Positions 3,951 to 24,775 of a stretch of DNA of 26,468 nt are shown one piece after another. Made by a program: the position numbers and the translations under genes. The number at the start of each line of letters is the position of its first letter. Positions within the stretch are counted from its first letter, which is position 1. The notes beneath the pieces were generated by a model, which worked only from the letters and a program-made list of their open reading frames with translations, did not search any database and was not told where the DNA came from. Source of the stretch: Natrinema soli (GTDB lineage: Archaea > Halobacteriota > Halobacteria > Halobacteriales > Natrialbaceae); NCBI RefSeq assembly GCF_028618695.1, contig NZ_JAQIVI010000121.1, positions 39,777 to 66,244 of the forward strand, written 5' to 3'.

Positions 3951-4309
3951 TAAAACCCCCAGATTGGGTTAGCGTGAGCTCTGAGTGGCAACACTGACGG
4001 AAGTTGACAAAATTCGGATATGGTATTGGGAATATAACAAGATACCTCGTTCAGAGAGTGGTTTGAAGCAGTTTCTCCTCGTCGATTCGGTCGAAACCAC
4101 ACATTACAGGCCCTAAACCCGCTGTAGTCTCAACTTCCCCACGAACGAATTCTATGTATCGAAATACAATTTATAGAGGGTAGATTACTCCATAGAACAC
4201 TCGAGTGGGCCGAAATAAGCGGAATGAGAGGACTCAGTATCTACTGTGTATTAGTGCAGTTGTACACAGTAGATTTACGTGGGTCGCCGCCGTCGGTCGA
4301 GTACGAACT
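3951..4309. other. Intergenic region upstream of the recombinase
   Basis: No gene is seen between the transposase remnant and the recombinase. It contains a good box A (TTTATAG, 4170-4176) and the 12-bp inverted repeat described separately. A GTG at 4205 is in frame with the recombinase and could give a form 35 residues longer. Confidence 0.5.
4239..4274. promoter_or_regulatory. Perfect 12-bp inverted repeat, candidate operator
   Basis: Arms ATCTACTGTGTA (4239-4250) and TACACAGTAGAT (4263-4274) are exact mirror images with a 12-base spacer. The repeat lies between the box A at 4170-4176 and the ATG at 4310 of the recombinase gene, so it could be an operator controlling the recombinase or an RNA hairpin in its leader. 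The arm TACACAGTAGAT occurs again at 19360-19371, upstream of the urea transporter. Confidence 0.7.
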
Positions 4310-5434
4310 ATGGAACCCGATGAGGGCGACGCTACACCCGGGGAAACACCAGTCGAAACGGCCATCCAGCAGTACCTCGACAGCGTCGAGGCTGGTAACT
4401 CCCGGAAGAACTTCGAGTCGGCTCTCGCGACGTGGCGCACCTGGCTACGCGAGGAGCGTGGTGTGAGGAGCCTCGAGGACCTGGACGTCCTCGACTGCCG
4501 TCGATACGCGCGCCACCTCAAACAGCGGGCCCGCGACGGCGATCTAAAAGCGAGTACTGCGACCACCTACTACGCGTACATCCGCGCGTTTCTCACGTTC
4601 TGTGTCGCTGACGAGCTCCTCGATACGAATCCGGCGAAAGCGAAGCGCGCCACCGACGAGCTCCCCGAGGATCTCGGTGACGCCGACCGGCAGTTCTGGC
4701 GAGAAAAGGAGCGGCAGGCGATCATGCGCTACGTCGACGAACGTGTCGACCACGCCCTTGACGAAGAAGCGGACGTGAGTCGTGAGCGGGCCTTTCGCGA
4801 TCGAGCAGTCGTCTATCTTCTTGGACTCTCGGGCGTTCGCGGCGCAGAGGTGTTCGCTGAACCCTCAGACGACAAGCGGAACGGCATCACCTGGGGAGAC
4901 GTCCAACTCGACGCCGGTGCCGTCCGCGTCCTCGGGAAGTCACGAGAGTACGAGTACGCACAGCTTCCCGAGCGGGCCGCCACGGTACTAGAGCGGTACA
5001 GGACTATCCTCAATCCACCGACCGACGAGTGGCCGGTCTTTCCCAGCGGACACGTCCCGTCGAAATATCGCGCCGTTCGTGAGCAGTTGGCCTATCAGGG
5101 TGTTCCGGACGACAAAATCGAGACGATCCTAGAGAGCAATGACATCGACACAGTGCTCCGAGAACATGAGGTCGTCCCACCAGCGCTCTCGACGAACGGT
5201 GCTCGCAACTTGATGAAGCGGCTGTGTGAGGACGCTGACCTCGACGTCGACGGTGACTACCTGAAGCCACATGGGGCCCGTCGAGGGCTTGGACACGAAC
5301 TCTACGCGAGTGGCCACGCCGAACTCGCCCAATCAGCGCTCCGACACGCGAGCATCGAGACAACCCACGAATCCTATTCCGACATCCAGGCGGCAGAGAC
5401 CGCGAAGCAAGTAGACGATCTTCTCAAGAATTGA
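4310..5434 (+). CDS. Tyrosine recombinase / integrase (XerC/D-like)
   Basis: A 374-residue recombinase with an N-terminal SAM-like core-binding domain (about residues 15-125, with WRTWL and TYYAYIRAFLTFC) and a full catalytic domain. The catalytic set is present: Arg in LGLSGVRGAEVF, Lys in LGKSREYEYAQLP, HGAR in LKPHGARRGLGHEL, His in ALRHASIETTHESY and the nucleophile Tyr in HESYSDI. It should cut and rejoin DNA at specific sites, either integrating an element or resolving replicon dimers. Its neighbours (repeat sites, AAA+ pair, Orc1 origin) favour a role in replicon maintenance, but no att site was found. ATG 4310 (MEPDEGDATPG) is preferred; a GTG at 4205 is possible. Confidence 0.88.
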   Translation: MEPDEGDATPGETPVETAIQQYLDSVEAGNSRKNFESALATWRTWLREERGVRSLEDLDVLDCRRYARHLKQRARDGDLKASTATTYYAYIRAFLTFCVADELLDTNPAKAKRATDELPEDLGDADRQFWREKERQAIMRYVDERVDHALDEEADVSRERAFRDRAVVYLLGLSGVRGAEVFAEPSDDKRNGITWGDVQLDAGAVRVLGKSREYEYAQLPERAATVLERYRTILNPPTDEWPVFPSGHVPSKYRAVREQLAYQGVPDDKIETILESNDIDTVLREHEVVPPALSTNGARNLMKRLCEDADLDVDGDYLKPHGARRGLGHELYASGHAELAQSALRHASIETTHESYSDIQAAETAKQVDDLLKN

Positions 5435-5484
5435 ATGGCGGTTGTTGGTTAAGGCAGATGGGGCCTTCTGGCCACCCAATAACT

Positions 5485-5506
5485 CTAATATTAACCTTAA
5501 TATTAG
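5485..5506. repeat. AT-rich site 1: perfect 10+2+10 palindrome
   Basis: The arm CTAATATTAA is followed by CC and its exact mirror TTAATATTAG. It is the best copy of the site family found at 5485, 5614, 7234, 7392, 8084 and 9068. It begins 51 bases after the recombinase stop. Confidence 0.85.
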
Positions 5507-5613
5507 GCGCGTTTGGTCGACTGTAGTGGCTCATTCATCGTTGACTACGGATGGAAGCATTGAAACTCCCAACGCTATCCCTTACTCACGGAAATGGGGT
5601 TTCCCGAGGTTGT

Positions 5614-5635
5614 TTAATATTAAGATTAGAATTAA
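5614..5635. repeat. AT-rich site 2
   Basis: TTAATATTAA, GA, TTAGAATTAA. The right half-site matches the mirror of the left at 8 of 10 positions. Same 10+2+10 geometry as site 1. Confidence 0.8.
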
Positions 5636-5690
5636 GAAGATGTCCGCCCATTCGTAGTATCACCCCAAAGGGCCAAGATGTCGGTAGCTT

Positions 5691-5710
5691 AGAGCTAGCA
5701 GGGTAGCTCT
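5691..5710. terminator. Small inverted repeat downstream of the winged-helix gene
   Basis: AGAGCTA, a 6-base loop, TAGCTCT. It lies about 140 bases past the 3' end of the winged-helix gene, with no clear T-run. It may be a transcript end or chance. Confidence 0.25.
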
Positions 5711-5850
5711 GAGAGAACAACCATGGCGGATAGTGCCAAGAATATCAGCACCGGGAAATAGCGCTCGCAGCGATGAATACGGCGTTCGGAGTACGAGTCA
5801 ATCAGAACGCAGCATGAAACTCCTCTTCTCGGATCTCTCCAAACGAACCG

Positions 5851-6327
5851 CTAGGGGGACCCAGTTGCTTCCATATCCGGTTCGTCGAATTCGAGTGCCT
5901 CTCTCACGGCTTTGGGAAGCGTCGGCCGCGGTGCGTCCTCGTGGCGCTGTACCCGCTCGGATTTTTTCGTCTCCTCATAGACCGCGCGTGCAACTGGGAC
6001 GCCCCGCAGGAAGTTGTGGTCGTAGAGGATCTCAACCCCGCGCTCGGTTGGTCCCCAGAACTTTGACGGGAGATCTCGCGTCGACACGTTGGGTTCGTGC
6101 ACGTAGACGTCAAGGATTCCTGCCTCTTGGAGCGTCTCGAGCTGGTCGAGGATGGCCGCCTCGTTCTTCGGAATCATGTAGTCGAGCTCGGCCAACGACG
6201 CGAGGTGTGCTGGGTGACCGAGGATCAACTGCAAGATGAGGTGGCGCGTTTCCTGGGAGAGCAGCTCACGCATTCGCTGCTGCTCTGCGAAAGGATCCTC
6301 GAACCCTTCTGGGGCCGTGTCGCTCAT
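5851..6327 (-). CDS. Winged helix-turn-helix DNA-binding protein
   Basis: A 158-residue protein. The N-terminal half reads RMRELLSQETRHLILQLILGHP, then SLAELDYMIP and AAILDQLETLQEAGILDVYV, the helix pattern of an ArsR-like winged helix; STRDLPSKFWGPTERGVEIL forms the wing and following strand. The C-terminal part is basic then acidic. Proteins of this type are common on haloarchaeal plasmids and proviruses as local regulators. ATG 6325-6327 (MSDTAPEGFEDPF) is chosen over the ATG at 6378, whose extra 17 residues look unlike coding sequence. It is divergent from the gene at 6443, with a 115-base shared promoter region, so it probably controls that gene. Confidence 0.78.
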   Translation of the reverse strand: MSDTAPEGFEDPFAEQQRMRELLSQETRHLILQLILGHPAHLASLAELDYMIPKNEAAILDQLETLQEAGILDVYVHEPNVSTRDLPSKFWGPTERGVEILYDHNFLRGVPVARAVYEETKKSERVQRHEDAPRPTLPKAVREALEFDEPDMEATGSP

Positions 6328-6414
6328 ACTGTAGAGTAGTGGGCTCGACTGCATAACGGTTTGGGTTGAACAAGTCAATAGAATCGTCGAAATACTGAGT
6401 CAGTTAGAAATGCC

Positions 6415-6420
6415 TTTTAC
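6415..6420 (+). promoter_or_regulatory. Box A-like TTTTAC upstream of the 6443 gene
   Basis: It lies 23-28 bases upstream of ATG 6443, the leaderless spacing. It is the reason for rejecting the in-frame ATG at 6410, which would place the promoter inside the gene. Confidence 0.45.
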
Positions 6421-6442
6421 CCAGCCAGTACTGTTTCCGCTT

Positions 6443-7225
6443 ATGAGTGCTCCATCCGTTCCCCCAAACTCAGGCGAGATCATGAAGGCTGTGCAGCAGG
6501 CCTTACGCGGGCTCGACGTCGGGTCGACGGAGGCCGTGCGAATCCTCTCGTGGGCAAACAGTGAGACACCGGCAATCTACGACCGTGATCAAACCGCGTA
6601 TCTCGTCCTCGGGAGCTATCGTGATCCGTATCTCCGCCGAGTACGGGCAGTCAGTGATCGGTTGAACCGTCGATACAGAACGTATGCCTTCCTCATTGGG
6701 GACCTCTCAGACATTGAGCTCCCCCGACTTCCGGAGTTCCGCGTGAAGTTCCATATCACGGCGACACTCTGTGATTACGTGGCTGCCGTGTTCGAGCAAG
6801 ATGCGGGCGGGGAGATCAACGAGCTCGGCAAACTGGGCGAAACAGAGTACTTCGAAAAGGCGTACGCCTTCCCGCGCGCATACCAGTGGGAAACGGAGGA
6901 CCACCTCACCGACGAACGTGATGTAATCGCTGCTGCTGCGCAAATCATAGCTGCCACCGATATCGATGACAAGACGAAGACTGCAGAACTCGAGGCGCTC
7001 GTTGAACGAGCAAACCAAGCTGAGATTGACATCTCGGTCGATGAGGTGAGGACCAAGCTCGAAGAACACAATATCGAGGTTCCGTCGTACAGCTGGGTGC
7101 ATCTGAATGACTTCCGTCTCTTCGAACTCCATGGGCGATGTTCTCCCTGGACGACTGAGGAAGAGTTACTCGACGCTACAGATGATCTTCCAGGGTCACC
7201 GAGACCAAAGTGGGAACAACGGTAA
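6443..7225 (+). CDS. Uncharacterised protein, possibly nucleoside-deoxyribosyltransferase/TIR-like
   Basis: A 260-residue protein of unrecognised family. Residues 51-130 alternate strand and helix: TAYLVLGSYRDPYLRRVRAV begins with a G-S-Y turn, a second strand is YAFLIGDL, and CDYVAAVFEQDAGGEINELG carries an acidic GGE-x2-E segment. That order resembles the Rossmann-like nucleoside 2-deoxyribosyltransferase/TIR/SLOG group, in which an acidic residue in this region helps cleave an N-glycosidic bond; this is inference from pattern only. A helical middle (about 140-215) leads to a C-terminal block rich in Trp and Phe with LPGSPRPKWEQ. Divergent from the winged-helix gene. Site 3 begins 8 bases after its stop. 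Confidence 0.65.
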   Translation: MSAPSVPPNSGEIMKAVQQALRGLDVGSTEAVRILSWANSETPAIYDRDQTAYLVLGSYRDPYLRRVRAVSDRLNRRYRTYAFLIGDLSDIELPRLPEFRVKFHITATLCDYVAAVFEQDAGGEINELGKLGETEYFEKAYAFPRAYQWETEDHLTDERDVIAAAAQIIAATDIDDKTKTAELEALVERANQAEIDISVDEVRTKLEEHNIEVPSYSWVHLNDFRLFELHGRCSPWTTEEELLDATDDLPGSPRPKWEQR

Positions 7226-7233
7226 GGCTAGTT

Positions 7234-7255
7234 TTAATATTAATTCTAATCTTAA
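7234..7255. repeat. AT-rich site 3
   Basis: TTAATATTAA, TT, CTAATCTTAA. Mirror match 8 of 10. It lies just after the stop of the 6443 gene. Confidence 0.8.
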
Positions 7256-7391
7256 GGATAAGTCTTCCATTGTTAGTCGGCATCAGCGTGTCCAATCGAA
7301 AGTCATCTTGCCCGAGAGAAAAGGGAGCCCCACTGATTTGAATAGGTCTTCCATGAAACGACGCCATCCGGTATCAGGATAGAAGGAGCAG

Positions 7392-7413
7392 TTAATCTTA
7401 ACTCTGAGATTAA
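7392..7413. repeat. AT-rich site 4
   Basis: TTAATCTTAA, CT, CTGAGATTAA. Mirror match 8 of 10. It sits at the point where homology of the helicase fragment stops. Confidence 0.75.
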
Positions 7414-7439
7414 ACCCAAGTCACACCCATTAACAAGAG

Positions 7440-8058
7440 GCTGGAGTGAACTTCCTCCACCCGATAGCGGGAATCGCTCACTGTTCATGTTCGCGAGCAC
7501 GACGACCAGATGCTCGAGCCCCTTCGCTGCGTGAATCGTTTGGACCGTCACCGATTTCGCACCGGCGTTCGCGTGGACGTCGTGGATACTTCCGGCTTCG
7601 ATGCCGCGCTCAATGAACCGGATAAGGTCTCCACGGGTCAGCGTCATCGCGATGTGTACTGACTGAATCGTGTGGAGGACGACATCGGCCGTGGCACCGT
7701 CGTACCCGTACCGCGAGAAGACACGTTCTGCCACCCCACCAAGCGTCTCCAGTTGTACCAACTTATCGCAGAACAAGCGCATGTTCTCGGGATATGCCTC
7801 CGTCTCCAGGATGTGCTTGATCTCATTGAGTGTGTAGCCTGCTTCCTCGAGGATGACCGCCCAGCCGCGGTCGGTGTCGGATTCGAGGATGCGGAGCCAC
7901 GCAAGCAGCAGTTTCGCCTGGGGGGTGCGGAACAGTTCAATTCCACCCCTCGTACGCCATCGGAAGTCCGTACTCCTCGGCGGTTTGCAGCAGGTCTCGG
8001 CCGAACTCTCGTGTCCGCGTGAGAACTGCGACATCTCGAGACTCGAGAGGTACTCAAT
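7440..8058 (-). pseudogene. UvrD/Rep-type helicase fragment with frameshift
   Basis: The downstream frame reads GIELFRTPQAKLLLAWLRIL, a helical 2B-like region, then TVQTIHAAKGLEHLVVVL and MNSERFPLSGGGSS, a UvrD-type motif V region. Upstream, RDVAVLTRTREFGRDLLQTA and YGLPMAYEG continue the same protein in another frame. The two join at about 7945, where one extra base breaks the frame. The N-terminal ATPase half and the C-terminus are missing: the fragment stops close to site 4 on one side and site 5 on the other. It is a dead remnant of a superfamily 1 helicase, about 200 codons long. Confidence 0.85.
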
Positions 8059-8083
8059 TCAGAGAAGGGCCGAACGAATGAGA

Positions 8084-8117
8084 TTAATCTTAAGATTAAT
8101 ATTCAGATTAGATTTAA
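8084..8117. promoter_or_regulatory. AT-rich site 5: three half-sites on the AAA+ promoter
   Basis: Three 10-bp half-sites, TTAATCTTAA, TTAATATTCA and TTAGATTTAA, are each separated by GA, giving an exact 12-bp period. The last half-site contains TTTAAG (8113-8118), which is placed as box A 24-29 bases upstream of the AAA+ ATG at 8142. A protein bound here would compete with the basal transcription factors, so this should be an autoregulatory operator as well as a possible partition site. Confidence 0.8.
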
Positions 8118-8141
8118 GTCGGTTCGGTATGTGGAGCCACT

Positions 8142-9071
8142 ATGGGCGATCAATTCAGCGAGGCCCTCGATAAAACAGAGGAGGTACAGGAAGCCTATGC
8201 GAATCAGCTCGGTATCAAGCCAGAGCGGATTCCATTCACGGCCGAGACACTTCCTGACGCGAGTATCGCGGTTCGCGCGAATCAGGAACTCCTCAATGAG
8301 GTTGCGAGCCACATCTTGAATCGAGCAGGCCACATCTCAATCATCGATGAACGGGGCGCTGGAAAATCTCACTTCCGCGATCTCGTGTACGATGCTCTTT
8401 CAGAGGGTCCTCGAAGCGATGAGTTCCGAGTCGCTCGAATACGGGAAGTCGAGTCCATCACGACACGTCGCTTCTATACGCGTCTTCTTGACGAACTCAG
8501 TGAGTACGATGACCTCGAGATTCCAGAGTCGTACCCTCATGCCACAGACGAAGTTCGTCAGCTTGTCGAAGAGGTTGCCGAACAACTCGAATCACTCAAT
8601 ATCGCGTGTATCATCCAAGTTGACCAACTGGAAGATGCGGCACGGAATACGCGAACCTTTGAGCAGTTACTAGCCGCGTTGCAGAGCGTCGGTGACCTCG
8701 GAGATAGTGAACCAGTATTCATCCTCTTCCTGTTTGGAACAGAGCGGGCTGGCGATCGAATCGACGAACTGCGCGAGACGCTCAGTTCCCGACTCGTCGC
8801 GAAGGATCGGACGCTGGAACGATTCGGGTTCGCAGAAACGGAGGAACTCATCGCTCGGTGGCTGGCTTGGGCCCGCGAAGAGGACTATGATTCCGGATAT
8901 CCTTCAGATCCGTACGCTGCAAGTGCCATCGAGTCCGTCGTCGAAGTCAGCGATGGGACCCCACGTGATACTCGACAGAAGTGCTATCACGCGTTCCGAG
9001 CTGGCGCACAGCAGTTCGCTGCCGAACAAGACGTTGAGATCTCGAACGAGACGTTAGACGCATATCTTTAA
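8142..9071 (+). CDS. AAA+ ATPase, Orc/AAA-like, without DNA-binding domain
   Basis: A 309-residue P-loop ATPase. The Walker A region is ISIIDERGAGKSHF (Lys75, Ser76), with Asp69 where the first Gly is usual. Walker B is IACIIQVDQLED, with Gln162 in place of the usual catalytic Glu. A sensor-1-like strand (VFILFLFGTERAGDRI), an LSSRL that could hold an arginine finger, and a sensor-2-like SDGTPRDTRQKCY follow. The protein ends soon after the lid, with no winged helix as in Orc1/Cdc6, so DNA contact would need a partner. That partner is likely the ribbon-helix-helix-like protein encoded 24 bases downstream. I infer a segregation or maintenance role; a regulator or transposition ATPase is possible. 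Confidence 0.72.
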   Translation: MGDQFSEALDKTEEVQEAYANQLGIKPERIPFTAETLPDASIAVRANQELLNEVASHILNRAGHISIIDERGAGKSHFRDLVYDALSEGPRSDEFRVARIREVESITTRRFYTRLLDELSEYDDLEIPESYPHATDEVRQLVEEVAEQLESLNIACIIQVDQLEDAARNTRTFEQLLAALQSVGDLGDSEPVFILFLFGTERAGDRIDELRETLSSRLVAKDRTLERFGFAETEELIARWLAWAREEDYDSGYPSDPYAASAIESVVEVSDGTPRDTRQKCYHAFRAGAQQFAAEQDVEISNETLDAYL

Positions 9072-9089
9072 TATTAAGCTTAAGAATAA
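9068..9089. promoter_or_regulatory. AT-rich site 6 on the promoter of the small downstream gene
   Basis: TTAATATTAA, GC, TTAAGAATAA; mirror match 8 of 10. It overlaps the TAA stop of the ATPase gene (9069-9071), and its TTTAATA (9067-9073) lies 23-29 bases upstream of ATG 9096 as a box A. The small gene can thus be transcribed on its own and repressed through this site. Confidence 0.8.
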
Positions 9090-9095
9090 GGGCGT

Positions 9096-9410
9096 ATGAG
9101 CAACGACAATCCATTCGGCGAAGCGATGGATGACGCAGCGGACGAAAAAGATCGAGAGGACCAGCAACCTGCGTCGGACTTCGATACCGAATCCTACTAC
9201 GACGCGCTCAACACTGGCGTAAAGGACCACACGATAGGCGTCTCCGTGAGCGAAGAGATGCATCAGTTCTGGCGTGAACTCCAAGATACGGACGACGTCG
9301 ACGTCGATCCTGCCCAGTCTATTCGGAATCATCTCGAAAATCTCGCTCATCGACATCCCGACGTGTTTGAACGAGCAATGCGGAAGCTCGAAATCGATCG
9401 CGAGATGTGA
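9096..9410 (+). CDS. Small acidic ribbon-helix-helix-like protein
   Basis: A 104-residue protein. The first 40 residues are acidic and probably disordered. Residues 43-86 fit a ribbon-helix-helix: a beta strand (HTIGVSVSEEM), helix A (HQFWRELQDTD), a turn and helix B (AQSIRNHLENLAHRHP), then a short tail helix. Ribbon-helix-helix dimers bind short, closely spaced AT-rich half-sites, which matches the 10-bp sites on a 12-bp period around this gene. The layout (ATPase gene, operator site, small DNA-binding gene) is like ParA-ParG type partition operons, with acidic N-terminus free to touch the ATPase. The fold is inferred from pattern; the family name is not recognised. Confidence 0.62.
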   Translation: MSNDNPFGEAMDDAADEKDREDQQPASDFDTESYYDALNTGVKDHTIGVSVSEEMHQFWRELQDTDDVDVDPAQSIRNHLENLAHRHPDVFERAMRKLEIDREM

Positions 9411-9471
9411 CCATCAAGTTAACAAGCAGAGAATTGACATTCAATCCGTTGTTGGTCAACTAACTCACTTG

Positions 9472-9632: not shown

Positions 9633-9680
9633 CCGGCGACGAATGACACTGACGAGAATAGGGGAGAAGACAATTTTAAT

Positions 9681-9950
9681 ATCGATGATAGGGGGTGTCC
9701 GGGTCAGAGTTTACACTTCGATGCCGGGGTGTCAGACGCATGGCTTACACTTCGATGACGGGGGAGGCGGAGATCGTGTCGAAGAGCAGATACTCAGATT
9801 CGCACGAAGTTGAGGCGAACCTCATTACACATCGATGACGGGGGGCCTCTTATCGAATGTACTTCGGTGACGGTTCTACCACAGAGAGCGTAAAACCGGA
9901 TATTACGGAGATAGATTAGTTATATCGCCCGAATAAACATCGACGGGGGT
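9681..9950 (+). other. Replication origin, left ORB-like repeat cluster
   Basis: Repeats of consensus TTACAC(A/T)TCGATGACGGGGG lie in one orientation upstream of orc1: good copies at 9710-9729 (GCC for GAC), 9744-9764 and 9825-9845, and degenerate ones at 9681-9698, about 9859-9874 and 9935-9950. The G-tract ending is the hallmark of haloarchaeal origin recognition boxes, bound by the neighbouring Orc1/Cdc6. Together with the right-hand copies this is an origin. The stretch 9880-9935 is AT-richer and could unwind first. Confidence 0.85.
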
Positions 9951-9954
9951 GAAT

Positions 9955-9962
9955 CTTTTTAA
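9955..9962 (+). promoter_or_regulatory. Box A (CTTTTTAA) of orc1/cdc6
   Basis: It lies 23-30 bases upstream of ATG 9985 and directly after the last degenerate ORB copy, so Orc1 bound at the origin may also limit its own transcription. It supports start 9985 over 9949. Confidence 0.6.
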
Positions 9963-9984
9963 CGCTCCGGCGTACACTAAGCGT

Positions 9985-11430
9985 ATGACCGGTAGTGATC
10001 AAGATGAGGCGGATCAATCTATCCTTGGTGAAGGAACGCATTCTAGAGTTGACGAAGAACAAATAGAAGCTGTCGGAGACACGGTGCCGGACCAAGATAA
10101 AGTAACTACTGAAGACAGTACTCAGCGATCGATCCGGGACATGCTCGACGATGAGGGGGAGACATCAGTCTTCGTCAATCGAGACCTTGTCGAGCCAGAC
10201 ACAATCATCGATGAGGAGCGAATCGTCGGTCGTGACGATCAACTTGAATCTGTTGTCTCATTTCTGAAACCGACCCTCCAAGGAAATCGCCCCCCAAATA
10301 TGCTGTTATACGGTCCTGCCGGGACAGGGAAATCACTCATCATTGGGGCAGTCACACAACAAATTATCGAGCTCTGTCAATCGAAGGGCAAACGCTTCGG
10401 TGTAGTCGATATCAACTGCCAGCCGATCAACACCCTCGACCAAGCAGTCTTCGAGCTCGTCCAGACCGTTGCGAAGGATGTCGACACGAAGATCGGCGTA
10501 CCTGAAACGGGCGTATCGACGAAGCATAAATATCGACGACTGTATAAACTTATCAACGAACACTATGACTCGGTCATTTTCATCCTCGACGAGATTGACC
10601 TCTTGGTCGGCCGGCGAGCAAACGACGAACCTGCCTATTCAAAACTGCTCTACCAACTATCACGAGCGAGTAATACAAACGAAATCGAAGGGCAGGTATC
10701 AGTCGCTGCACTGACGAATGACCCAAAATTTATGGAGGACATCGACGGTCGTGCCGAGAGTTCATTTAATCCGCGAGATGTCTATTTCCCAGATTATGAT
10801 GCAAATCAATTACGCCAGATACTCGAAAATCGTCGTGATGCCTTTCGGCCTGATGCATTAACTGACGACGTATTACCCCTCGTATCGGCATTTGCAGCAC
10901 AGAGTCATGGGGACGCACGAAAAGCAATTGACTTGTTTCGCGGTGCCGGTGATCTCGCGGATGAACGTGGTGACGAGAAGGTTCGCGAAGACCATGTCCG
11001 CGAATCCCAGGAGGAAATTGACAAGGATCGCTCATTAAAGCTTGTTGAGGGACTGACGACCCAAAAAAAGATCTCACTTTACGCGACAGCCTCTGTTGCG
11101 CATTTCTCGAATTGGTCAGGGAGCTCCGTTCCAAGTCCAGTTGGATTCAAGGTCTATCAATGGATTACCGAAGAGATAGATGCTGACCAGATGACCCGCG
11201 AGACATACGTCAAGTATGTCAAAGAACTCTCCACGTATGGTCTGATCTCGTCCTCCCGGAAGAGTCGAGGGCGTGGTGGCGGAATGTACATGGAGTTCAC
11301 CTTCACAGGAGATCCCGCAGCAATGATGAACCGGATTGTCGATGATACTCGAATGGAAGCAGTTTCCGACCAAGAAGAACTCCTCCGAACTGTCATCAAC
11401 TCACAGTTAAAGAAGTTCCATAATCAGTGA
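9985..11430 (+). CDS. Orc1/Cdc6-type origin-binding initiator ATPase
   Basis: A 481-residue initiator. An acidic N-terminal extension of about 60 residues is followed by an AAA+ core: IVGRDDQLE, Walker A GPAGTGKS (110-117), Walker B FILDEID (Asp202, Glu203), a sensor-1 Asn in AALTNDPKF, and sensor 2 SHGDARKAIDLF. A winged-helix domain forms the C-terminus, including FKVYQWITEEIDADQM and TYGLISSSRKSRGRGGG. It should bind the ORB-like repeats on both sides of the gene and load the MCM helicase. Start MTGSDQDEADQ is preferred from the box A. The N-terminal extension is longer than in many chromosomal Orc1 proteins, as is common on secondary replicons. Fully intact. Confidence 0.93.
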   Translation: MTGSDQDEADQSILGEGTHSRVDEEQIEAVGDTVPDQDKVTTEDSTQRSIRDMLDDEGETSVFVNRDLVEPDTIIDEERIVGRDDQLESVVSFLKPTLQGNRPPNMLLYGPAGTGKSLIIGAVTQQIIELCQSKGKRFGVVDINCQPINTLDQAVFELVQTVAKDVDTKIGVPETGVSTKHKYRRLYKLINEHYDSVIFILDEIDLLVGRRANDEPAYSKLLYQLSRASNTNEIEGQVSVAALTNDPKFMEDIDGRAESSFNPRDVYFPDYDANQLRQILENRRDAFRPDALTDDVLPLVSAFAAQSHGDARKAIDLFRGAGDLADERGDEKVREDHVRESQEEIDKDRSLKLVEGLTTQKKISLYATASVAHFSNWSGSSVPSPVGFKVYQWITEEIDADQMTRETYVKYVKELSTYGLISSSRKSRGRGGGMYMEFTFTGDPAAMMNRIVDDTRMEAVSDQEELLRTVINSQLKKFHNQ

Positions 11431-12762: not shown

Positions 12763-13211
12763 CCGTCTCGAAGCGACGCTTCGGCGTCGACGACTTATTC
12801 AGAACCGGGGCGTGACGGATGGCGAGCAATCAGTTACCGCTCCGTTCACATGCGAGAAAGTCACCGGCCTCGTATGGATGATCCTCGGCGACGTGGCTGT
12901 CGATAGAACAACGTATCTCCAGAGGAATGACGATCTTTCGTACGACCCGCGGGAACACAGTGAGAACTATTTGTGACTGTGATACAGTCCTTTCGAATGG
13001 TCGCCAGTCTTAGCCGCTCATGTGGACGGCATCTTCCCTATAGAGTATCGTACGTTGGAAACCACTCCGTCATAGAGCGCGTGAACACCGCCGCGTCGAC
13101 GTCCATAACATCTCCGATATCCCGGTGATCGGCCTCGAGGAAGGTACCCCACCCAACGTATATGAGTTCAACCTCGGATCCGGGGGTAGCAGCTATCGCT
13201 GGCCGATCCGT
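12763..13211. other. No recognisable gene
   Basis: This is the gap between the IS630 remnant and the end of ureF. Short frames exist but none looks like a known protein. The ureF transcript should end here; no clear hairpin with T-run was found. Confidence 0.5.
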
Positions 13212-13985
13212 TCAGCTCATGAACAGCCGTCTGCCGGCGTGTTCGTGACGCATCCCCATGATCTCTGCGAGGGGGGCGAACGAGGCCATCGCCGTGACAT
13301 CGTCGTCGACGTGGCGCTCGCAGACTGTCGCGATCACCGGCTGCAGCGTCTCGAGCACCGACTGGATCTCGGTGTGACCAAACCGGCCGAGCCGCTGTGC
13401 CGCCCCGAGCAAACCCGTAACGAACGAGTACGCATGTGCGAGGCACGCCTCGAGTGTCGAGAGACCGCGCGTCGCGGCGACGACACCGAAAACGACCGGA
13501 TAGTGGCCCGGCGTCGCGCCAGTCTCGATGGCCTCGGCGAAGTTGGCCGTGATATCCCCGCCGTCGGCAGCCGTCGATTTCGTGTCGGTACCTGCTTCGT
13601 CTTCGTTCTGCTCCTCGCCCGAATTCGAGTGCGTCGGTCGTGAACCGGGACTCAGTAGGTCGCACAGCTTCACGCCGGCTTTCGTCGAGCTCTCACGGAA
13701 CTCGCAAGGCATCGTCACCGCGTGGAGTCGCTCATCGACGGCCAGCAGTTGCTCGAGGTCGCCGGCGGTACTTGCGGCGTGGGCGTTCGCCAGTGCAACG
13801 GTTTCACACGGGCCGACGACACGTCGGAGATAGGCAGCTACCAGTTCCCGGAGGTCGTCTCCGTCTTCGATTCGGTCTTCGTTGATATACTGCTCGAGGC
13901 CGTACGAGGCCGTATATCCCCCGACAGGAAGAAACGAATCCGAGAGCCGGAGGGCGGTCAGAAACGGCGCTGGATCAGTGGTCAT
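13212..13985 (-). CDS. ureF: Urease accessory protein UreF
   Basis: A 257-residue all-helical protein that works with UreD and UreG in loading nickel into the urease apoprotein and acts as a gate on UreG GTPase. ALRLSDSFLPVGGYTASYGLE is the family's N-terminal motif; AATRGLSTLEACLAHAYSFV and AQRLGRFGHTEIQSVLETL are the conserved C-terminal helices. An acidic low-complexity insert (about residues 117-155) is a haloarchaeal addition. ATG 13983-13985 (MTTDPAPFL) was chosen because it overlaps the ureE end by 11 bases; a longer in-frame start would lie deep in ureE. Last gene of the operon. Confidence 0.92.
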   Translation of the reverse strand: MTTDPAPFLTALRLSDSFLPVGGYTASYGLEQYINEDRIEDGDDLRELVAAYLRRVVGPCETVALANAHAASTAGDLEQLLAVDERLHAVTMPCEFRESSTKAGVKLCDLLSPGSRPTHSNSGEEQNEDEAGTDTKSTAADGGDITANFAEAIETGATPGHYPVVFGVVAATRGLSTLEACLAHAYSFVTGLLGAAQRLGRFGHTEIQSVLETLQPVIATVCERHVDDDVTAMASFAPLAEIMGMRHEHAGRRLFMS

Positions 13986-14601
13986 GGTGGGAATGACTGT
14001 GATCATGCTCACCGTGTTCGTGCGCGTGCCCGCCAGTGCCGTGACCGTGTTCGTGGTCGTGTTCGAGGCCGGGGACGGATCGATGACCATCGTCAGAATC
14101 AGTCTCCTCGTCTTCGAGGTCCGTCACGAATAGGTCGGCCTCGACCGTCGTCTTCCGAATTTCGGAGCCGGGGACGACGTTGGCGACGACGCGCTCGACG
14201 ATATGGCGGTCCGCCTCGATCGGAACGTAGATGGTGCCGTCCTCGACAGAGAGGTCCCAGTGTTGGTTGCCGACGCGGTGGCCGAGTTCGACCGCGGCCT
14301 CAAGCGCCTCGCTCGTCGCGTTGGGCAGCGAAATCGCGAGCGCGTCGCGGGGTTCGAACGCGATGGCGATCATCCGGTCGTCGTCGACCGCCAGTACGTC
14401 GCCAACCGACACGGCCGGTTTGTCGACGATGACGCCCACGTCCGTCCCCGCGTCGGTCGTCGCCCGGAATCGTGACCGGCGGCGATTCTCGGCATTGAGG
14501 ACGACCCGCTCGAGGGTGCCCCGCTCCTCGTGAGTTTTGTGCAACACGGCGAGTTCGTCGTCAGCGTGGACGTTGCCGACGACTCCGTCGATTCGCTCCA
14601 T
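13975..14601 (-). CDS. ureE: Urease accessory nickel chaperone UreE
   Basis: A 208-residue protein that binds nickel and hands it to UreG. The N-terminal part has the UreE peptide-binding domain (ERVVLNAENRRRSRFRA) and the second domain has the metal-binding ferredoxin-like fold, with LGHRVGNQHWDL as its core. The last 36 residues are dominated by His and acidic residues (HDHEHGHG, HAHEHGEHDHSHSHHDH), a nickel-storing tail. ATG 14599-14601 overlaps the ureD stop as TGATG, so translation is coupled; this decides the start against an ATG 60 bases upstream. Confidence 0.93.
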   Translation of the reverse strand: MERIDGVVGNVHADDELAVLHKTHEERGTLERVVLNAENRRRSRFRATTDAGTDVGVIVDKPAVSVGDVLAVDDDRMIAIAFEPRDALAISLPNATSEALEAAVELGHRVGNQHWDLSVEDGTIYVPIEADRHIVERVVANVVPGSEIRKTTVEADLFVTDLEDEETDSDDGHRSVPGLEHDHEHGHGTGGHAHEHGEHDHSHSHHDH

Positions 14602-15560
14602 CAGTATCGCCGGTCGGCGGGTATGCCGACCCCTAGTGTCGTCCGTCTCGTTTCGTCCCATGCATCGCGAAGCGCAGCGGTGACGTCTGTCTGCCGGTGA
14701 CCGAGGAGCCGGATGATCGCGCCGGCGTCGTACGGGAGCGTTGAGACGCCGACCGCGACGTCATCACACTCGCCGAGCCGATCGCGGACGGATTTGATCA
14801 GTACCTCGAGATCTGCGCTCGAGGAATCGGTTTCCTCGTCACCGTCCGGCGCGAAGACGTATAGCGAGCCGATGACGCCGTATTCGCCGACGCTGGCCGG
14901 ACCCCGCGGATCGCGCTCGTCGGGTCGCAGGTCGACGGCGTCGGCACAGACCAGCCGGCCGTCACATTCGGCTTCGACGCGCGCGTGATAGTGGTCGAAG
15001 CCGAACGGCTTGTGATCGCTCAGGCCATCTGGGACAAGTACATCCGCGACGACGACGACCGAATCGGGGGCGAGGTCGACCGCGACGGTCTGGAGACAGC
15101 GGGCGTGCTCGTTGACGATCGTTGGCCCCGGAACGTACTCGAGGTAGCTCCCCGCCGCGGCCCGAATCGAGGCGTCGAGGTGGGCGTAGTTCTTGGTCAT
15201 ACTGTGGACCTTCGTCGCGCTCTGGGTCGTCACGCGGGCACGAGCGCCGGCTCGCGCGTCGATCGTCATCCGATGACGGTCGCCCTGTGCGACGCCACCT
15301 GTCGGCTCCTGCGCGACGAGCGTCGTCAGCCCGGGCGCCGGATCGGTCTCCAGCGTCCCAGTCAGGTGGTAAGGGACTTCCACGCGGTCCCGTATCAGGC
15401 GGGTCGGACCGTCGGATTCACGGGCAACGGTCGCCTCGAGTAGTCCGTTTTTTCCCGGGCCACCGGCGGGGGCCTGTCCGAGGGGTTCGTCGGCGTAGCC
15501 CTCGAAGGCGGGCGGTAGTCGCGCTGGGTCGGCCGCGGCGCTCGAGTGGCCGGTACTCAC
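14601..15560 (-). CDS. ureD: Urease accessory protein UreD
   Basis: A 319-residue protein of the UreD/UreH family, the scaffold that docks UreF and UreG on the urease apoenzyme. Family features are the PYHLTG start of the beta-rich core, [35 protein letters not shown] and the C-terminal [15 protein letters not shown]. An N-terminal extension of about 60 residues rich in Ala, Gly and Pro is unusual. The start is a GTG (15558-15560) that overlaps the ureG stop as GTGA, which argues for coupled translation. Confidence 0.92.
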
Positions 15561-16177
15561 GCGAACAACACCTCGCGCTTGACATGTTCGAGGACGGCGT
15601 CGATCCCCTCGCCGTCCTTGCAGTTCGTGAAGACAAACGGGTCCTCACCCCGGACTGCCGTGGCGTCGTCTTCTATCACCGAGAGGTCAGCGTCGACGTG
15701 GGGCGCGAGGTCAGTCTTGTTGATGACCAGCAGATCCGCCTGAGTAACGCCGGGACCGCGCTTACGTGGGATGTCCTCGCCCTCCGCGACGGAGATGACG
15801 AACAGGAAGTAGTCGGCGAGTTCGGGGTTGAATGTCGCGGCGAGGTTGTCGCCGCCGCTCTCGATTAGGACCACGTCCAGATCGGGGTGGCGCTCGGTGA
15901 ACTCGTCGATGGCCGCGAGGTTCATGGAAGGATCCTCGCGAATCCCCGTGTGCGGACAGGCTCCCGTTTCGACGCCCTCTACGAGATCCGCAGGCAGGAG
16001 GTCGGCGAACGACTCGCGGAAGACATCGGCGTCTTCCTGGGTCATGATGTCGTTGGCGATGACGCCCACTTCGTAGTCGCGTGCGACGAGTTCCGGGACG
16101 AGTCGCCGAACCATCGCCGTCTTCCCCGAGCCGACGGGGCCGCCGAGACCGACCTTTGCCACGTCTCGATACCCCAT
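15557..16177 (-). CDS. ureG: Urease accessory GTPase UreG
   Basis: A 206-residue SIMIBI-class GTPase that powers nickel insertion. Visible are the P-loop GPVGSGKT (13-20), the metal-binding Cys-Pro-His in [12 protein letters not shown], the [11 protein letters not shown] segment and the base-recognition NKTDLAPHV. The length is normal. ATG 16175-16177 overlaps the ureA stop by one base (TGATG), again coupled translation. Confidence 0.95.
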
Positions 16178-16605
16178 CAGTCGCCCTCCATCGGTTCGGT
16201 ACCGCTGTCGATTTCGTGTACATCTCCGTCCGCGGTCGCGTCGTCCGTCCCGAGTTCCTCGTCCGGGTCCGGATCGACCGTCCCGAGCTGTTCGCGACTG
16301 TCGGCTCTGATTGGATCGTGAACTGTAACGAGCTTGGTGCCGTCGGGGAAGACCGGCTCGACCTGAATCATGTCGACTAGTTCGGGAACGCCGTCCATGA
16401 CGTCCTCGCGGGTAAGCAGCTGCGTCGCTTCCAAGCGGATCTGCGAGACGGACTTGCCCTCGCGGGCGGCCTCGCAGGCCCAGTCGGAGATGTACGCGAC
16501 CGTCTCGGGGTGGTTGAGCTTCACGCCGCGCGCCTTGCGTCGGCGGGCGAGTTCCGCGGCCATAAAGACTGTCAGCCGCTCCATCTCCTTCGGTGAGAGG
16601 TTCAT
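16177..16605 (-). CDS. ureA: Urease gamma subunit
   Basis: A 142-residue subunit. The first 100 residues match the usual length and pattern: [60 protein letters not shown] and the [18 protein letters not shown] end. The last 40 residues are an acidic tail rich in Asp and Glu, a haloarchaeal extension. A strong ribosome-binding site, GGAGGTG at 16611-16617, precedes the ATG and fixes the start. A gap of 119 bases separates it from ureC, the only real gap in the operon. Confidence 0.95.
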
Positions 16606-16724
16606 CGGCCCACCTCCGAACAGGCGGTCGGCTGGTCTCGCCCGCTCGAGTTGGGTCTCCGCGTCGTCGATACCACTGTAACTGTCGTCGTGACTATCAT
16701 CGCTGTGTCTCTGCGATTCATGGT

Positions 16725-18431
16725 TCAGAGTAAGTACCGCTGTGCGAGTGGGATTTCGTCGGCCGGGTCGCAGCTGACGTGTTCGCCGTCTACCTGGACC
16801 TCGAACGTCTGGGCGTCGATCTTGATGTCGTCCGGGCAGTGGTCGTTGTGGTGCATATCGGACTTGCGGACCGACCGTGTTCCCTCGACTGGTCGAACCG
16901 GCGTTTTGAGTCCATAGGCGGCGCCAATCTCGTTCTCGGCTGCGGTCGCGCTGACGAACGTCACCGAGAGGCCGTGTTTCGCCCGACCCTGTGCGCCGGC
17001 GCGTTCGCGACCGATGACCGGTTCGCAGGTCATCAGCGAGCCGTTGGCCTCTCCCATCTGGGACCAGACGGGAAAGCCGCCTTTGATTATCGCCTTCGGC
17101 TTGATCCCGAAGAAGCCGGGTTCCCAGAGCGCGATGTCCGCGAGCTTTCCGGGCTCGAGTGAACCCACGTAGTCGTCGATCCCTGCGGTGATCGCTGGAT
17201 TAATCGTGTACTTTGCGACGTAACGGGCAATGCGGGCGTTGTCGGCATCGGTTCCCGCGTCGGCCTCGAGCGGGCCACGCTGGCTTTTCATCTTGTGGGC
17301 GGTCTGCCACGTCCGGCAGACGAGTTCGGCCATTCGGCCCATTGCCTGCGAATCCGTCGTCATCATACTGATTGCGCCGGTGTCGTGGAGCACGTCCTCC
17401 GCGCCGATCGTCTCAGCACGGATGCGCGACTCCGCGAAGGCCACGTCCTCAGGGACGTCCGGGTTGAGGTGGTGACAGACCATCACCATGTCCAGGTGCT
17501 CGTCGAACGTGTTCTCGGTGTAGGGCATCGACGGGTTGGTCGACGATGGCAGCATGTGCTCGTGGCCGATCAACTCGAGCACATCTGGGGCGTGACCACC
17601 GCCGGCCCCTTCGATATGAAAGGTGTGGATCGCGCGCCCGTCGATCGCGTCGAAGGTGTGCTCGACGAAGCCCGACTCGTTTAACGTGTCCGTGTGGATG
17701 CAGACCTGCACGTCCTCGTCGTCGGCTACCTCAAGACAGGTGTCGATCGCGGCGGGGGTCGAGCCCCAGTCCTCGTGGAGCTTGAGTCCGCAGACGCCGG
17801 CCTCGATCTGTTCGCGCAGCGGCTGGGGATCGCTGCTGTTGCCCTTGCCGTAGAAGCCGACGTTGACCGGCCAGTCCTCGGCGGCCTGCAGGAACCGTTT
17901 GACGTTCTGCGGCCCGGGTGTACAGGTCGTCGCCCCGCCGCCGAAGCCGCCGCCGAGCATGGTTGTCACGCCCGAAGCCAACGCATGTTCGACGAGTTGC
18001 GGGCTATTGAAGTGGACGTGAATGTCGAGCGCGCCGGGGGTCGCGATCAGCCCGTCCGCCGGGATCGTATCCGTACTCGGGCCAATCACCATGTCGACGT
18101 CGTCCATCGTATCTGGGTTGCCCGCTTTGCCGACGCCGGCGATCTCTCCGTTTCGGACGCCGATGTCGCCCTTCCGGACGCCCAGCACGGGATCGATGAT
18201 CACGACGTTCGTGAACACCCAGTCGAGCGCGCCCTCGGCTTGGGTCGTCCCAGACTGCATCCCCATCCCGTCGCGCATCGTCTTCCCGCCGCCGAAGACC
18301 GCCTCCTCGCCGGGGACAGTGTGATCCGTCTCAATCTTCGCCAGCAGGCTCGTATCGCCCAGTCGAAGCCGGTCCCCTTCGGTCGGCCCGAACAGGTCGG
18401 TATACTCTTTGCGAGGCAGGTCGCGACTCAT
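16725..18431 (-). CDS. ureC: Urease alpha (catalytic) subunit
   Basis: A 568-residue subunit that hydrolyses urea to ammonia and carbamate on a two-nickel centre. Ligands are His138 and His140 (IHVHFN), Lys217 (GLKLHE, the carbamylated lysine), His246 (CIHTDT), His272 (HTFHIEG) and Asp360 (TTDSQAMGR); Cys319-His320 (VCHHL) forms the active-site flap. From Lys217 on the numbering coincides with that of the Klebsiella enzyme, so nothing is missing. Its ATG overlaps the ureB stop by 4 bases. Haloarchaeal acidic surface is apparent. Confidence 0.97.
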
Positions 18432-18814
18432 TCGTCGCCCTCTCCGATGTATCCCCGTTCTCGAGCGCGCTCGAGCGCCGTCGCCTTCACGTCCTCGTCG
18501 TCGAGTTCGCCGTCGACCAGCCCGGCCATCCCATGGACGATCCGATCGCCGCCGATAGCAACGAGGTCGACATCGCGCTCGCGACCCGGTTCGAACCTGA
18601 TGGCCGTCCCCGCGGGGATGTCCAGTCGCATTCCGTATGCGGTCTCGCGGTCGAACGCGAGACCGGGATTGACCTCAAAGAAGTGGAAGTGCGAACCAAC
18701 TTGTACGGGGCGGTCACCGGTGTTCTCGACCGTGACCGTCACCGTCGGCTGTCCGTCATTTATCGTCACTAGCTCATCAGCCGGAAGCAGTTCTCCCGGA
18801 ACGAATCCACTCAT
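18428..18814 (-). CDS. ureB: Urease beta subunit
   Basis: A 128-residue subunit: [20 protein letters not shown], then [20 protein letters not shown] and [14 protein letters not shown], the conserved beta core; the C-terminal tail [21 protein letters not shown] is acidic. It begins the operon, and the order ureB-ureC-ureA differs from the usual bacterial gamma-beta-alpha order. ATG 18812-18814 is preferred over a TTG two codons upstream because GGAGTGA at 18822-18828 lies at correct distance for the ATG. Confidence 0.95.
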
Positions 18815-18821
18815 ATCCAAA

Positions 18822-20046: not shown

Positions 20047-21312
20047 GTGACAAGCCCTACACTGTCCCGTCGAGAGATGCTCGCCGGCGGGGCAGCTAGC
20101 ACGCTCGCGTCGACTGCCGGCTGCGTTCAGGAGGGAGGTATCCTCGGCATCCAAGCAGGGTCCGACGGACCGACCGTCGCCATCCTCGAGGATCGGTCCC
20201 AAGACTTCGCCCTGACGGGAACGGCGAAGTACCGCGCATCGATCCTGGCGATCGAAGAGATTAACCGCGACGGTGGCATCCTCGGCCAGGAAATCGACGT
20301 CTTCGCTCCGGATCCCCAGTCCGACAACATGCGCTATCAGGATCTCACCCGACACGCGATCTATCGGGAGGACGTCGACGCGCTCTGGGCAGGCTACTCG
20401 AGCGCGACCCGGGAGGCGATCCGGCCGCTGATCAACGAACACGATCAGCTGTACTTTTACACGACGCAGTACGAGGGCGGCGTCTGCGACAAGACGGTGT
20501 TTCCCCTTGGTGCGACGGCCCGTCAGCAGCTCGGAGCCGTCGTCCCGTATCTGATCGAGGAGTACGGCGAAAAGATTTACACGATTGCGGCGGACTACAA
20601 CTTCGGCCAGCTGTCTGGTGACTGGGTAAAGCTCATCGCCGAGGAACACGGGGCCGAGGTCATCGGCGAGGAGTACATCCCGCTGAGCGAGACCCAGTTC
20701 GGGTCGACGATCAACAATATTCAGTCATCGAATGCCGACTTCGTGATGTCAATGCTCGTCGGCCAGAACCATAGCTCGTTCTACGAACAACGAGCCGCGA
20801 GCGGCCTCGACATTCCGATCGGTTCCTCAACGACGATGGCCCAGGGGTACGAACACCTGCGACTCGATCCACCAGCGCTGACCGATATGTACGTCGGTGT
20901 CAACTACATGGAGGAGTTGCCGACCGATCGCAACCAGGCATTCGTCGAGCGGTATTACGACCGCTGGGACGACGCTAAGTACCTCAACCAGGAGGCACAG
21001 AATAACTACTTCTCGATCTACCTCTACAAGAAGGCAGTCGAACGCGCCGGCACGTTCGACCAGGAGATCGTGATCGAGGAACTCGAGTCCGGACTCTCCG
21101 TGGAAGCGCCGGAGGGAGACGTTCGACTCGATCCCGAGACACACCACATGGTACACAAAATGCGTGTCGGCCACGCCGACGAAACGCACGAGATCACGTT
21201 CGACGAGGCACAGTACATCGAACCGTCCTTCCTGCAGGACGTCGGCTGCGACCTGACGACTGATCCCGAGCGGACGCAGTACGAACCGCAGGATGTCTAC
21301 GGGGGGATCTGA
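20047..21312 (+). CDS. urtA: Urea ABC transporter, substrate-binding lipoprotein UrtA
   Basis: A 421-residue binding protein of the amide/urea type that captures urea outside the membrane. The N-terminus is a Tat-type lipoprotein signal: SRREMLAGGAASTLASTAGC, twin Arg at 8-9 and lipobox Cys at 26, so it is exported folded and lipid-anchored, usual in haloarchaea. GPTVAILEDRS-like start, YFYTTQYEGG and GVNYMEELPTDRNQAFVERY are typical of UrtA rather than branched amino acid binders. The start is GTG with GGTGAT upstream. First gene of a five-gene operon. Confidence 0.93.
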   Translation: MTSPTLSRREMLAGGAASTLASTAGCVQEGGILGIQAGSDGPTVAILEDRSQDFALTGTAKYRASILAIEEINRDGGILGQEIDVFAPDPQSDNMRYQDLTRHAIYREDVDALWAGYSSATREAIRPLINEHDQLYFYTTQYEGGVCDKTVFPLGATARQQLGAVVPYLIEEYGEKIYTIAADYNFGQLSGDWVKLIAEEHGAEVIGEEYIPLSETQFGSTINNIQSSNADFVMSMLVGQNHSSFYEQRAASGLDIPIGSSTTMAQGYEHLRLDPPALTDMYVGVNYMEELPTDRNQAFVERYYDRWDDAKYLNQEAQNNYFSIYLYKKAVERAGTFDQEIVIEELESGLSVEAPEGDVRLDPETHHMVHKMRVGHADETHEITFDEAQYIEPSFLQDVGCDLTTDPERTQYEPQDVYGGI

Positions 21313-21313
21313 G

Positions 21314-24077: not shown

Positions 24078-24775
24078 TGCTCGACATCACTGATCTGTAC
24101 GTCTCGTACGGAAAGACACCGATCCTCCGCGACATCGATATCAACGTCAACGACGGAGAGATCGTTGGCATCATGGGAAAAAACGGCGTCGGCAAGACGA
24201 CGCTGATGAAGGCCATCATCGGATTGCTCGAGGCCGATAACGGAACGATCACGTTCGACGAAACCGATATCACTGACGCCGGCGCAGATGACCGCGCTCG
24301 CCGCGGGATAGGCTATATCCCGCAGGGCCGAGACGTCTTCCCCGAACTGACCGTCGAGGAGAACCTCCGGATGGGCGAGACGATCAATGTGGACAACGAC
24401 GACCTCCAATACGAGGCCGTTTACGACTACTTCCCGATCCTTGAGGAGCGACGAACACAAGAGGCGGGAACGATGAGCGGCGGCCAACAGCAGATGCTCG
24501 CGATCGGCCGGGCGCTCGTCGGCAATCCAGCTCTTCTCCTCCTCGACGAACCGTCCGAAGGTGTGCAGCCGTCTATCGTTCAGGACATCACTCGGGACCT
24601 GCAACGGGTCAACGAAGAGATCGGCACAACGATCTGTTTCGTCGAGCAGAACCTTCACGTCGTCCAGAACCTCGCTGAGCGCTGTTACGCCATCGACAAG
24701 GGGACAATCGTCGACGAACTCGGTCCTGACCGACTCTCGTCTCGTGACGCCGTGACGAGGTACCTGGCAGTCTAG
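24077..24775 (+). CDS. urtE: Urea ABC transporter ATP-binding protein UrtE
   Basis: A 232-residue ATPase of the LivF branch, partner of UrtD. Walker A GKNGVGKTT, signature MSGGQQQMLAIGRAL, Walker B LLLLDEPSEGVQPS and a switch region VEQN (Gln in place of the usual His, as in LivF) are present. It overlaps the urtD stop by one base (TAATG). Last gene; a T-run (24791-24796) lies in the region after it. Confidence 0.95.
   Translation: MLDITDLYVSYGKTPILRDIDINVNDGEIVGIMGKNGVGKTTLMKAIIGLLEADNGTITFDETDITDAGADDRARRGIGYIPQGRDVFPELTVEENLRMGETINVDNDDLQYEAVYDYFPILEERRTQEAGTMSGGQQQMLAIGRALVGNPALLLLDEPSEGVQPSIVQDITRDLQRVNEEIGTTICFVEQNLHVVQNLAERCYAIDKGTIVDELGPDRLSSRDAVTRYLAV

Follow-up and report, generated by a model that had tools for sequence, protein, structure and literature searches.

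A conserved AAA+ ATPase and small-protein pair with hexad arrays, a putative partition-like cassette of haloarchaeal plasmids

The stretch of 26,468 nucleotides of Natrinema soli analysed here (contig NZ_JAQIVI010000121.1, positions 39,777 to 66,244; the window in what follows) contains a gene for an AAA+ ATPase, directly followed by a gene for a small protein, and six short AT-rich repeat arrays spread around them. An earlier note, made from the DNA letters, had proposed for these elements a partition-like system composed of a motor, a DNA adaptor and several centromere-like sites, and had placed the two genes at the coordinates given in Table 1, 0.6 kb from an Orc1 origin; the list of open reading frames (ORFs) bears out these places, with orc1 at 9949-11430. 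A fixed gene pair accompanied by hexad arrays, which we call the cassette, occurs in many haloarchaea and is mostly plasmid-borne.

Hexad arrays and the linked gene pair

The six sites announced in the window are real. Five of them (5485, 5614, 7234, 8084 and 9068) are recovered with the paired half-site pattern TTAATATTAA-N2-TTAATATTAA at up to three mismatches, a search that returned no match in 100 dinucleotide-preserving shuffles. The sixth (7392) was found as TTAATCTTAA in a search with the single 10-mer and is matched as well by the hexad pattern TTAANNTTAANNTTAANNTTAA, for which 10 shuffles gave no match at three mismatches and one at four. The sites do share one design, as the note had it, but they are built from a 6-bp hexad, TTAANN, in four to six contiguous copies, and not just from a 10-bp half-site with a 2-bp spacer. 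Across 19 loci (the window and L001-L018), TTAA-to-TTAA spacings of 6, 12, 18, 24 and 30 bp were counted 116, 77, 50, 18 and 14 times, and any other spacing up to 36 bp six times at most, with a smaller excess of 17 at 37 bp and of 13 at 38 bp. Of 285 hexad units, 284 have T at position 2 and 269 have A at position 3, counts that are somewhat favoured by the acceptance of units with up to one mismatch. Most of the 78 arrays comprise four units (43), followed by five (19) and six (16). The arms of site 1, described before as a perfect palindrome, are perfectly inverted, but around a CC centre, and site 5 keeps its tandem layout with six contiguous hexads instead of three half-sites. A chance origin of the arrays was rejected on the basis of the shuffle controls and the spacing period.

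With regard to their placement, four of the six arrays sit in two gaps between converging 3' ends (arrays 1 and 2, and arrays 3 and 4), and arrays 5 and 6 are found at the starts of the ATPase and small-protein genes, for which they may be candidate operators. The position of arrays 1-4 indicates that not every array is an operator; this placement and the number of arrays favour a structural role, such as that of centromere-like sites. In some relatives (L017) the gaps that hold arrays in the window contain other genes.

The two genes go together. Among 391 class-level Halobacteria genomes, with only 5 or 12 candidates scored per genome, the ATPase (E ≤1e-8, identity ≥67%) and the full-length small protein (E ≤1e-5) were found in the same 25 and neither of them alone in any; a pair not conserved together would, according to the note, have refuted its proposal. 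Pieces of the small gene occur in four further genomes, one of which, G145, has an ATPase piece too. In a set of 32 loci, to which one genome contributes two, the gene of the small protein, which is predicted to bind DNA, always adjoins that of the ATPase and starts at most 39 bp from its stop. Arrays lie 5' of the ATPase gene in 30 of these loci, between the two genes in 30 and directly 3' of the small gene in 8, and the one preceding the small gene ends a few bases 5' of its ATG. The distances among ATPases and among small proteins are correlated over 25 loci, with a Mantel r of 0.81 that none of 9999 permutations reached (kinship uncontrolled). TTAANN arrays are missing at three mismatches before both genes in two loci, L014, where they are degenerate, and L043, both with diverged pairs (ATPase identity 59% and 69-70%, respectively); in two further pair-bearing genomes, G252 and G330, they appear only at two or three mismatches.

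Moreover, the arrays follow the pair through the genomes. At up to one mismatch they were detected in 22 of the 25 pair-bearing genomes vs 15 of the 366 pair-less ones (Fisher 4e-23), with a reversed control pattern positive in 14 of the 391. Three genomes were inspected at two mismatches: all 15 matches in Natrinema zhouii fall on the plasmid of the pair, within ~34 kb (reversed control 1), as do 9 of 11 in Natrinema DC36 (reversed control 2) and 11 of 12 in H. halobius (reversed control 4) on the replicon of the pair. Far from being common genome-wide, these sites are thus rare and concentrated on the replicon carrying the pair, as expected from the earlier proposal. On pNG100 (33 kb) and on the plasmid of N. 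thermotolerans (30 kb), three arrays each were found at up to four mismatches, all within the cassette. The same dependence is seen around the block formed by an ArsR-like gene and a 271-aa gene, which is flanked by arrays on both sides. The gap after the 271-aa gene holds an array in all four complete plasmids with both block and pair (L017, L051, L052, L098) and in none of the three with the block but no pair (L054, L055, L097), of which L055 and L097 are near-identical Haladaptatus plasmids; L054 retains the decayed start of an array there, and L097 shows one three-mismatch match ~4.8 kb from this gap. Beside the helicase gene, no array was present in 8 pair-less plasmids (of 32 pair-less records; stretches of 5.5-5.6 kb). 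The pair-less genomes with arrays were read as DNA in seven cases (G343, G363, G159, G212, G065, G226, G145), are known by match lists in six (G157, G166, G188, G287, G292, G033) and by counts or places in two (G140, G325), the last two being positive for the reversed-pattern controls as well. Chance AT-rich repeats or terminators may explain several of these 15 genomes.

As side observations on the locus, an inverted repeat near TTAACCAACA ... TGTTGGTTAA lies directly 3' of the small-protein gene in L001, L008, L017, L018, L035 and L041; the window has a degenerate copy after this gene, at 9417-9466, and a lone arm after the integrase, at 5442-5452. This repeat might be a terminator, part of an origin or a recombination site. 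Plasmids of Haloarcula CBA1115 (L019, 11700-12250) and Halostella (L020, 11900-12170) keep only broken remnants of the small gene, and that of L019 has a ParA, a picture that would fit the replacement of an older system.

Table 1. Genes and repeats of the window around the ATPase and small-protein pair
Feature	Position	Strand	Remarks
Tyrosine integrase	4205..5434	+	PF00589, 41.2 bits; edge of the array-bearing region
Hexad array 1, 5 units	5479..5506		Gap between the converging integrase and ArsR-like genes
Hexad array 2, 4 units	5614..5635		Same gap as array 1
ArsR-like winged-helix gene	5851..6378	-	Sub-threshold helix-turn-helix matches only; annotated as ArsR in relatives
271-aa protein	6410..7225	+	Divergent partner of the ArsR-like gene
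Hexad array 3	7222..7261		Core 7234-7255; where the 271-aa gene ends, facing the converging helicase remnant
Hexad array 4, 4 units	7392..7413		Same converging gap as array 3, 3' of the helicase remnant
UvrD/AddA-like helicase remnant, two frames	7450..8044	-	Carried by ORF 7303-8034 (-)
Hexad array 5, 6 units	8078..8117		Ends 24 bp 5' of the ATPase gene
AAA+ protein, 309 aa	8142..9071	+	Orc/TnsC-type AAA+ domain and lid, without winged helix
Hexad array 6	9062..9089		Over the ATPase stop; ends 6 bp 5' of the small-protein ATG
Small protein, 104 aa	9096..9410	+	From the ORF, alignments A2 and A3 and a structure model
Four direct repeats near TTACACTTCGATGACGGGGG	9675..9844		Before orc1; distinct from the hexads
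Orc1/Cdc6 initiator	9949..11430	+	TIGR02928, 427.5 bits; separate gene adjoining the cassette, not obligatory

The two proteins and their place among described systems

Scanned against Pfam at E ≤1, the ATPase matched only AAA_22 and CHASE3, both below their cut-offs (PF13401 scored 25.1 bits for a cut-off of 27). No ParA family was among these matches, nor any actin-like or tubulin-like nucleoside triphosphatase (NTPase) family, a search for ParM and TubZ that covered the ATPase alone. No significant sequence match in the PDB was obtained with the alignments of either protein. The structure model of the ATPase (predicted local distance difference test, pLDDT, 89) is an AAA+ fold whose structural matches in the PDB are Orc/Cdc6, TnsC and MuB, so that the note was right in taking the protein as one of Orc/AAA kind and not as a ParA. 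Model and matches include the AAA+ domain with a lid, a feature of the Orc1/Cdc6 family. On the other hand, the C-terminal winged helix was not found in the Pfam scan, where Cdc6_C matches the neighbouring Orc1 and not the ATPase, and the structural match to Aeropyrum ORC2 reaches no further than residue 289 in a chain of 390 residues; the Orc1/Cdc6 profile TIGR02928 is not matched either. An identity as an ordinary Orc1 was rejected on the missing winged helix. Two other candidates were discarded as well, a phage origin of the cassette, with no ATPase match among 50,697 phage records, and a defence-gene identity, with no PADLOC match for the pair.

In all 32 loci, and among 179 database homologues in the best 120, a Gln comes after the Walker B Asp, which makes the label of motor given to this protein doubtful. 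Since this residue is present in all close homologues checked, a slow ATP turnover is expected, which favours the role of a switch, clamp or tether over that of a fast motor. Distant relatives (~30-39% identity) are the sole ATPase matches in 45 of the 391 genomes, one of them weak, often on long contigs. Five of them were retrieved (L046-L050), all without small partner or arrays and all with Asp-Glu in Walker B.

As for the small protein, its N-terminal part (residues ~1-28) is acidic and modelled with low confidence, and its conserved C-terminal half comprises a strand-like TIGVSV segment and helices at 53-64, 72-86 and 88-103. The best structural match of the model, a weak one, is a ribbon-helix-helix (RHH) domain, and the protein is a putative RHH DNA binder.

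The closest described layout is that of the delta/omega/parS system of plasmid pSM19035, where 7-10 contiguous heptads make up each of six parS sites over the copS, delta and omega promoters, the ParB is an RHH protein and at least four contiguous repeats are needed (PMC9499535). Like that system, the cassette combines an ATPase and a small protein with sites over both promoters and with several sites of contiguous short repeats, whose four to six units per array compare with the minimum of four there. It differs in its hexads TTAANN instead of heptads WATCACW, in a small protein whose RHH fold is putative, in an AAA+ ATPase without the deviant Walker motif of ParA, and in a stabilising role that is putative as well. 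Because its NTPase is not a ParA, the cassette is not a member of the pSM19035 type. From the features of type I partition, it has cis sites of repeated motifs near the genes on the same replicon, and lacks a ParA/MinD-type deviant-Walker ATPase.

The ATPases of SegAB and AspA-ParBA are of the ParA type. With these systems the cassette would have in common the archaeal host and the small site-binding proteins, and it is set apart from them, going by their descriptions, by an ATPase that is not a ParA. Both are named as archaeal segregation systems (PMC5120986). Unlike Orc1/Cdc6 initiators, the cassette ATPase combines the absence of winged helix and TIGR02928 match with a Walker B Asp-Gln and an obligatory small partner. 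From TnsC and MuB it appears to differ by belonging to a conserved cassette without transposase partner, the small protein taking that place; an integrase and scattered transposases occur near the cassette in some records, none of them as part of it. No description of the pair was found in searches of the open-access subset of PubMed Central (PMC), judged by titles and abstract openings.

A candidate partition module and its rivals

We propose, with evenly balanced confidence and from sequence comparisons, that the cassette serves plasmid maintenance in haloarchaea, most likely as a partition (segregation) module, a function that we infer. In such a module, dimers of the small protein would bind the hexad arrays cooperatively, repress their own two-gene unit through the arrays that overlap both gene starts, and build nucleoprotein complexes both there and at additional arrays that lie in gene-free gaps of the replicon. 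The acidic N-terminal tail would contact the AAA+ protein, whose ATP-bound form would assemble on DNA and connect the copies of the plasmid with one another or with host DNA, with a slow, switch-like use of ATP befitting a switch, clamp or tether. A fuller version, possible and rather doubtful, would see here a new class of partition NTPase: an AAA+ of Orc/TnsC type, locked with ATP by the Walker B Glu-to-Gln change, with a tailed adaptor and dispersed hexad 'centromeres', whose hexad would change along with the adaptor at a constant 6-bp period (AACGNN in G219) and whose arrays would also be joints for exchanging stability modules.

How haloarchaeal plasmids without ParA are inherited is, to our knowledge, not known. 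The ParA profiles PF13614 and PF01656 gave no match in three of the seven complete cassette plasmids (pNG100 and those of N. thermotolerans and Halomarina BCD28), whose sizes are 33, 30 and 119 kb, respectively. A pair that is widespread and strictly linked, with hexad arrays confined to its replicon, offers a concrete, testable candidate for the inheritance of such plasmids, pNG100 included. If the AAA+ protein were indeed the partition NTPase, the set of ParA, actin-like ParM and tubulin-like TubZ would gain a new member, one that would tie the AAA+ proteins of replication initiation and transposition to segregation.

Several observations weigh against this partition proposal. The catalytic Glu of Walker B is replaced in the cassette ATPases, and the small protein has an RHH fold that is so far putative. 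Arrays exist in the 15 pair-less genomes already mentioned: the draft genomes G343 and G226 keep those of the ArsR/271-aa block with no pair found, G145 keeps arrays with mere remnants of the pair, and elsewhere among pair-less genomes arrays flank toxin-antitoxin-like modules, one of them on a 3.37-Mb contig. A second, partial ATPase in G012 (G012:C61, residues 2-263) has no small-protein match of its own, and some pairs or ATPases are located on contigs of chromosome size (G019:C1; P0045). ParA profiles do match four of the seven complete cassette plasmids, the larger ones. Finally, pNG100 can be lost, as a strain without it exists (PMC6528647). An Orc1 match is missing from one of the seven plasmids, and this occurrence of the cassette with and without Orc1 speaks for the proposal; the cassette thus requires neither a particular initiator nor the absence of ParA. 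A further paper describes for pNG100 one predicted orc/cdc6-associated origin, and the word 'partition' is absent from its text (PMC3528665).

Other explanations of the cassette deserve consideration. An involvement in replication or copy-number control, where the Orc-type protein would act in initiation or its inhibition and the arrays would be iteron-like titration sites, is suggested by the Orc-type fold of the ATPase, by the AT-rich arrays and by the orc1 gene just 3' of the cassette in the window and several relatives. We consider it unlikely, though, given an ATPase without winged helix, arrays spread over kilobases (up to the ~34 kb of N. zhouii), one cassette plasmid without Orc1 match, and the case of H. 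halobius, where the Orc1 gene nearest to the pair (~2.3 kb) is partial, with an inner stop, and a full one is ~260 kb away. Moreover, distinct origin-type repeats precede orc1 in the window; these TTACACTTCGATGACGGGGG-like copies are likely the repeats of the Orc1 origin, and the hexad arrays were rejected as such an origin on this ground. A pure transcriptional circuit would have the small protein as repressor and the arrays as operators, with an unrelated job for the ATPase. RHH proteins are frequently repressors, and arrays just 5' of both genes in 30 of 32 loci would suit this idea, but the converging gene ends around four of the six window arrays are no places for ordinary operators and extra arrays persist in gaps 3' of genes at several loci, which leaves it quite improbable. 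Scarcely credible is the view of the arrays as AT-rich chance repeats or archaeal terminators. Their base composition, the 3'-3' position of some and the 14 genomes positive for the reversed control agree with it, but it does not account for the empty shuffles, the 6-bp period, the 22 of 25 vs 15 of 366 genomes or the dependence on the pair at two gaps; period and pair dependence led us to reject terminators.

The context of the arrays is broader than the earlier note presented: to its account have to be added the borders of toxin-antitoxin modules, the ends of homology blocks and the pair-less genomes with arrays. In this line, the arrays could be recombination borders, that is shared repeats or recombinase sites (for instance of the integrase) that let stability modules swap as units. 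Of 775 BLAST homology ends, 103 lie at most 10 bp from an array, compared with a mean of 25 and a maximum of 58 for AT-rich control places (1000 draws); many ends are repeats of each other, and collapsing them to 397 distinct ones leaves 47 within 20 bp of an array. In L009/L010 and L010/L011 the common stretch spans the first to the third array, homology stopping at both outer arrays and other blocks resuming beyond them, and arrays flank TumE and PIN toxin modules. However, part of the block-end effect is attributable to conserved elements at gene ends, which yield block ends anyway, no more than 40 of 101 arrays coincide with a homology end within 20 bp, and homology between L009 and L034 continues past the first array into the flank. 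The arrays at gene starts and their strict co-occurrence with the pair would stay unexplained, the crossover site is hypothetical, and we judge recombination borders an improbable explanation. At module borders, the arrays may be exchange joints or merely preferred places for sites.

Diverged pairs, module borders and neighbouring genes

The diverged pair of L043 has AACGNN hexads at both gene starts, noticed by eye and post hoc. Strict matches of AACGNNAACGNNAACG in its 3.8-Mb genome number nine, six of them on the 150-kb contig of the pair, where two overlap and two are the cassette ones that prompted the motif. On the contig of the diverged pair of G219, AACGNN arrays lie at L099 8720-10020, L101 2934-3831 and L102 3975-4002. 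At its two gene starts, this pair seems to rely on AACGNN hexads, a lead only: the finding is exploratory because it was made post hoc and because some of the matches fall within Asp/Asn-rich reading frames.

Regarding the toxin-antitoxin modules, L087, L089, L090, L091 and L093 have arrays at either end of a block that contains an HVO_A0114-type regulator; in L087, the sole such locus tested in full, the partner of the regulator is a TumE toxin. In L092, arrays flank a winged-helix/PIN pair.

Where the window has the helicase remnant, a complete AddA-like helicase and a PD-(D/E)XK nuclease are encoded in relatives (L017, 9841-15313), on account of which ~5.5 kb seem to have been lost in the window between arrays 4 and 5. 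Farther along, the window contains urease genes and a five-gene set for a urea-type ABC transporter (13209-18820 and 20047-24775), which resemble megaplasmid copies in Halomontanus and Natrinema.

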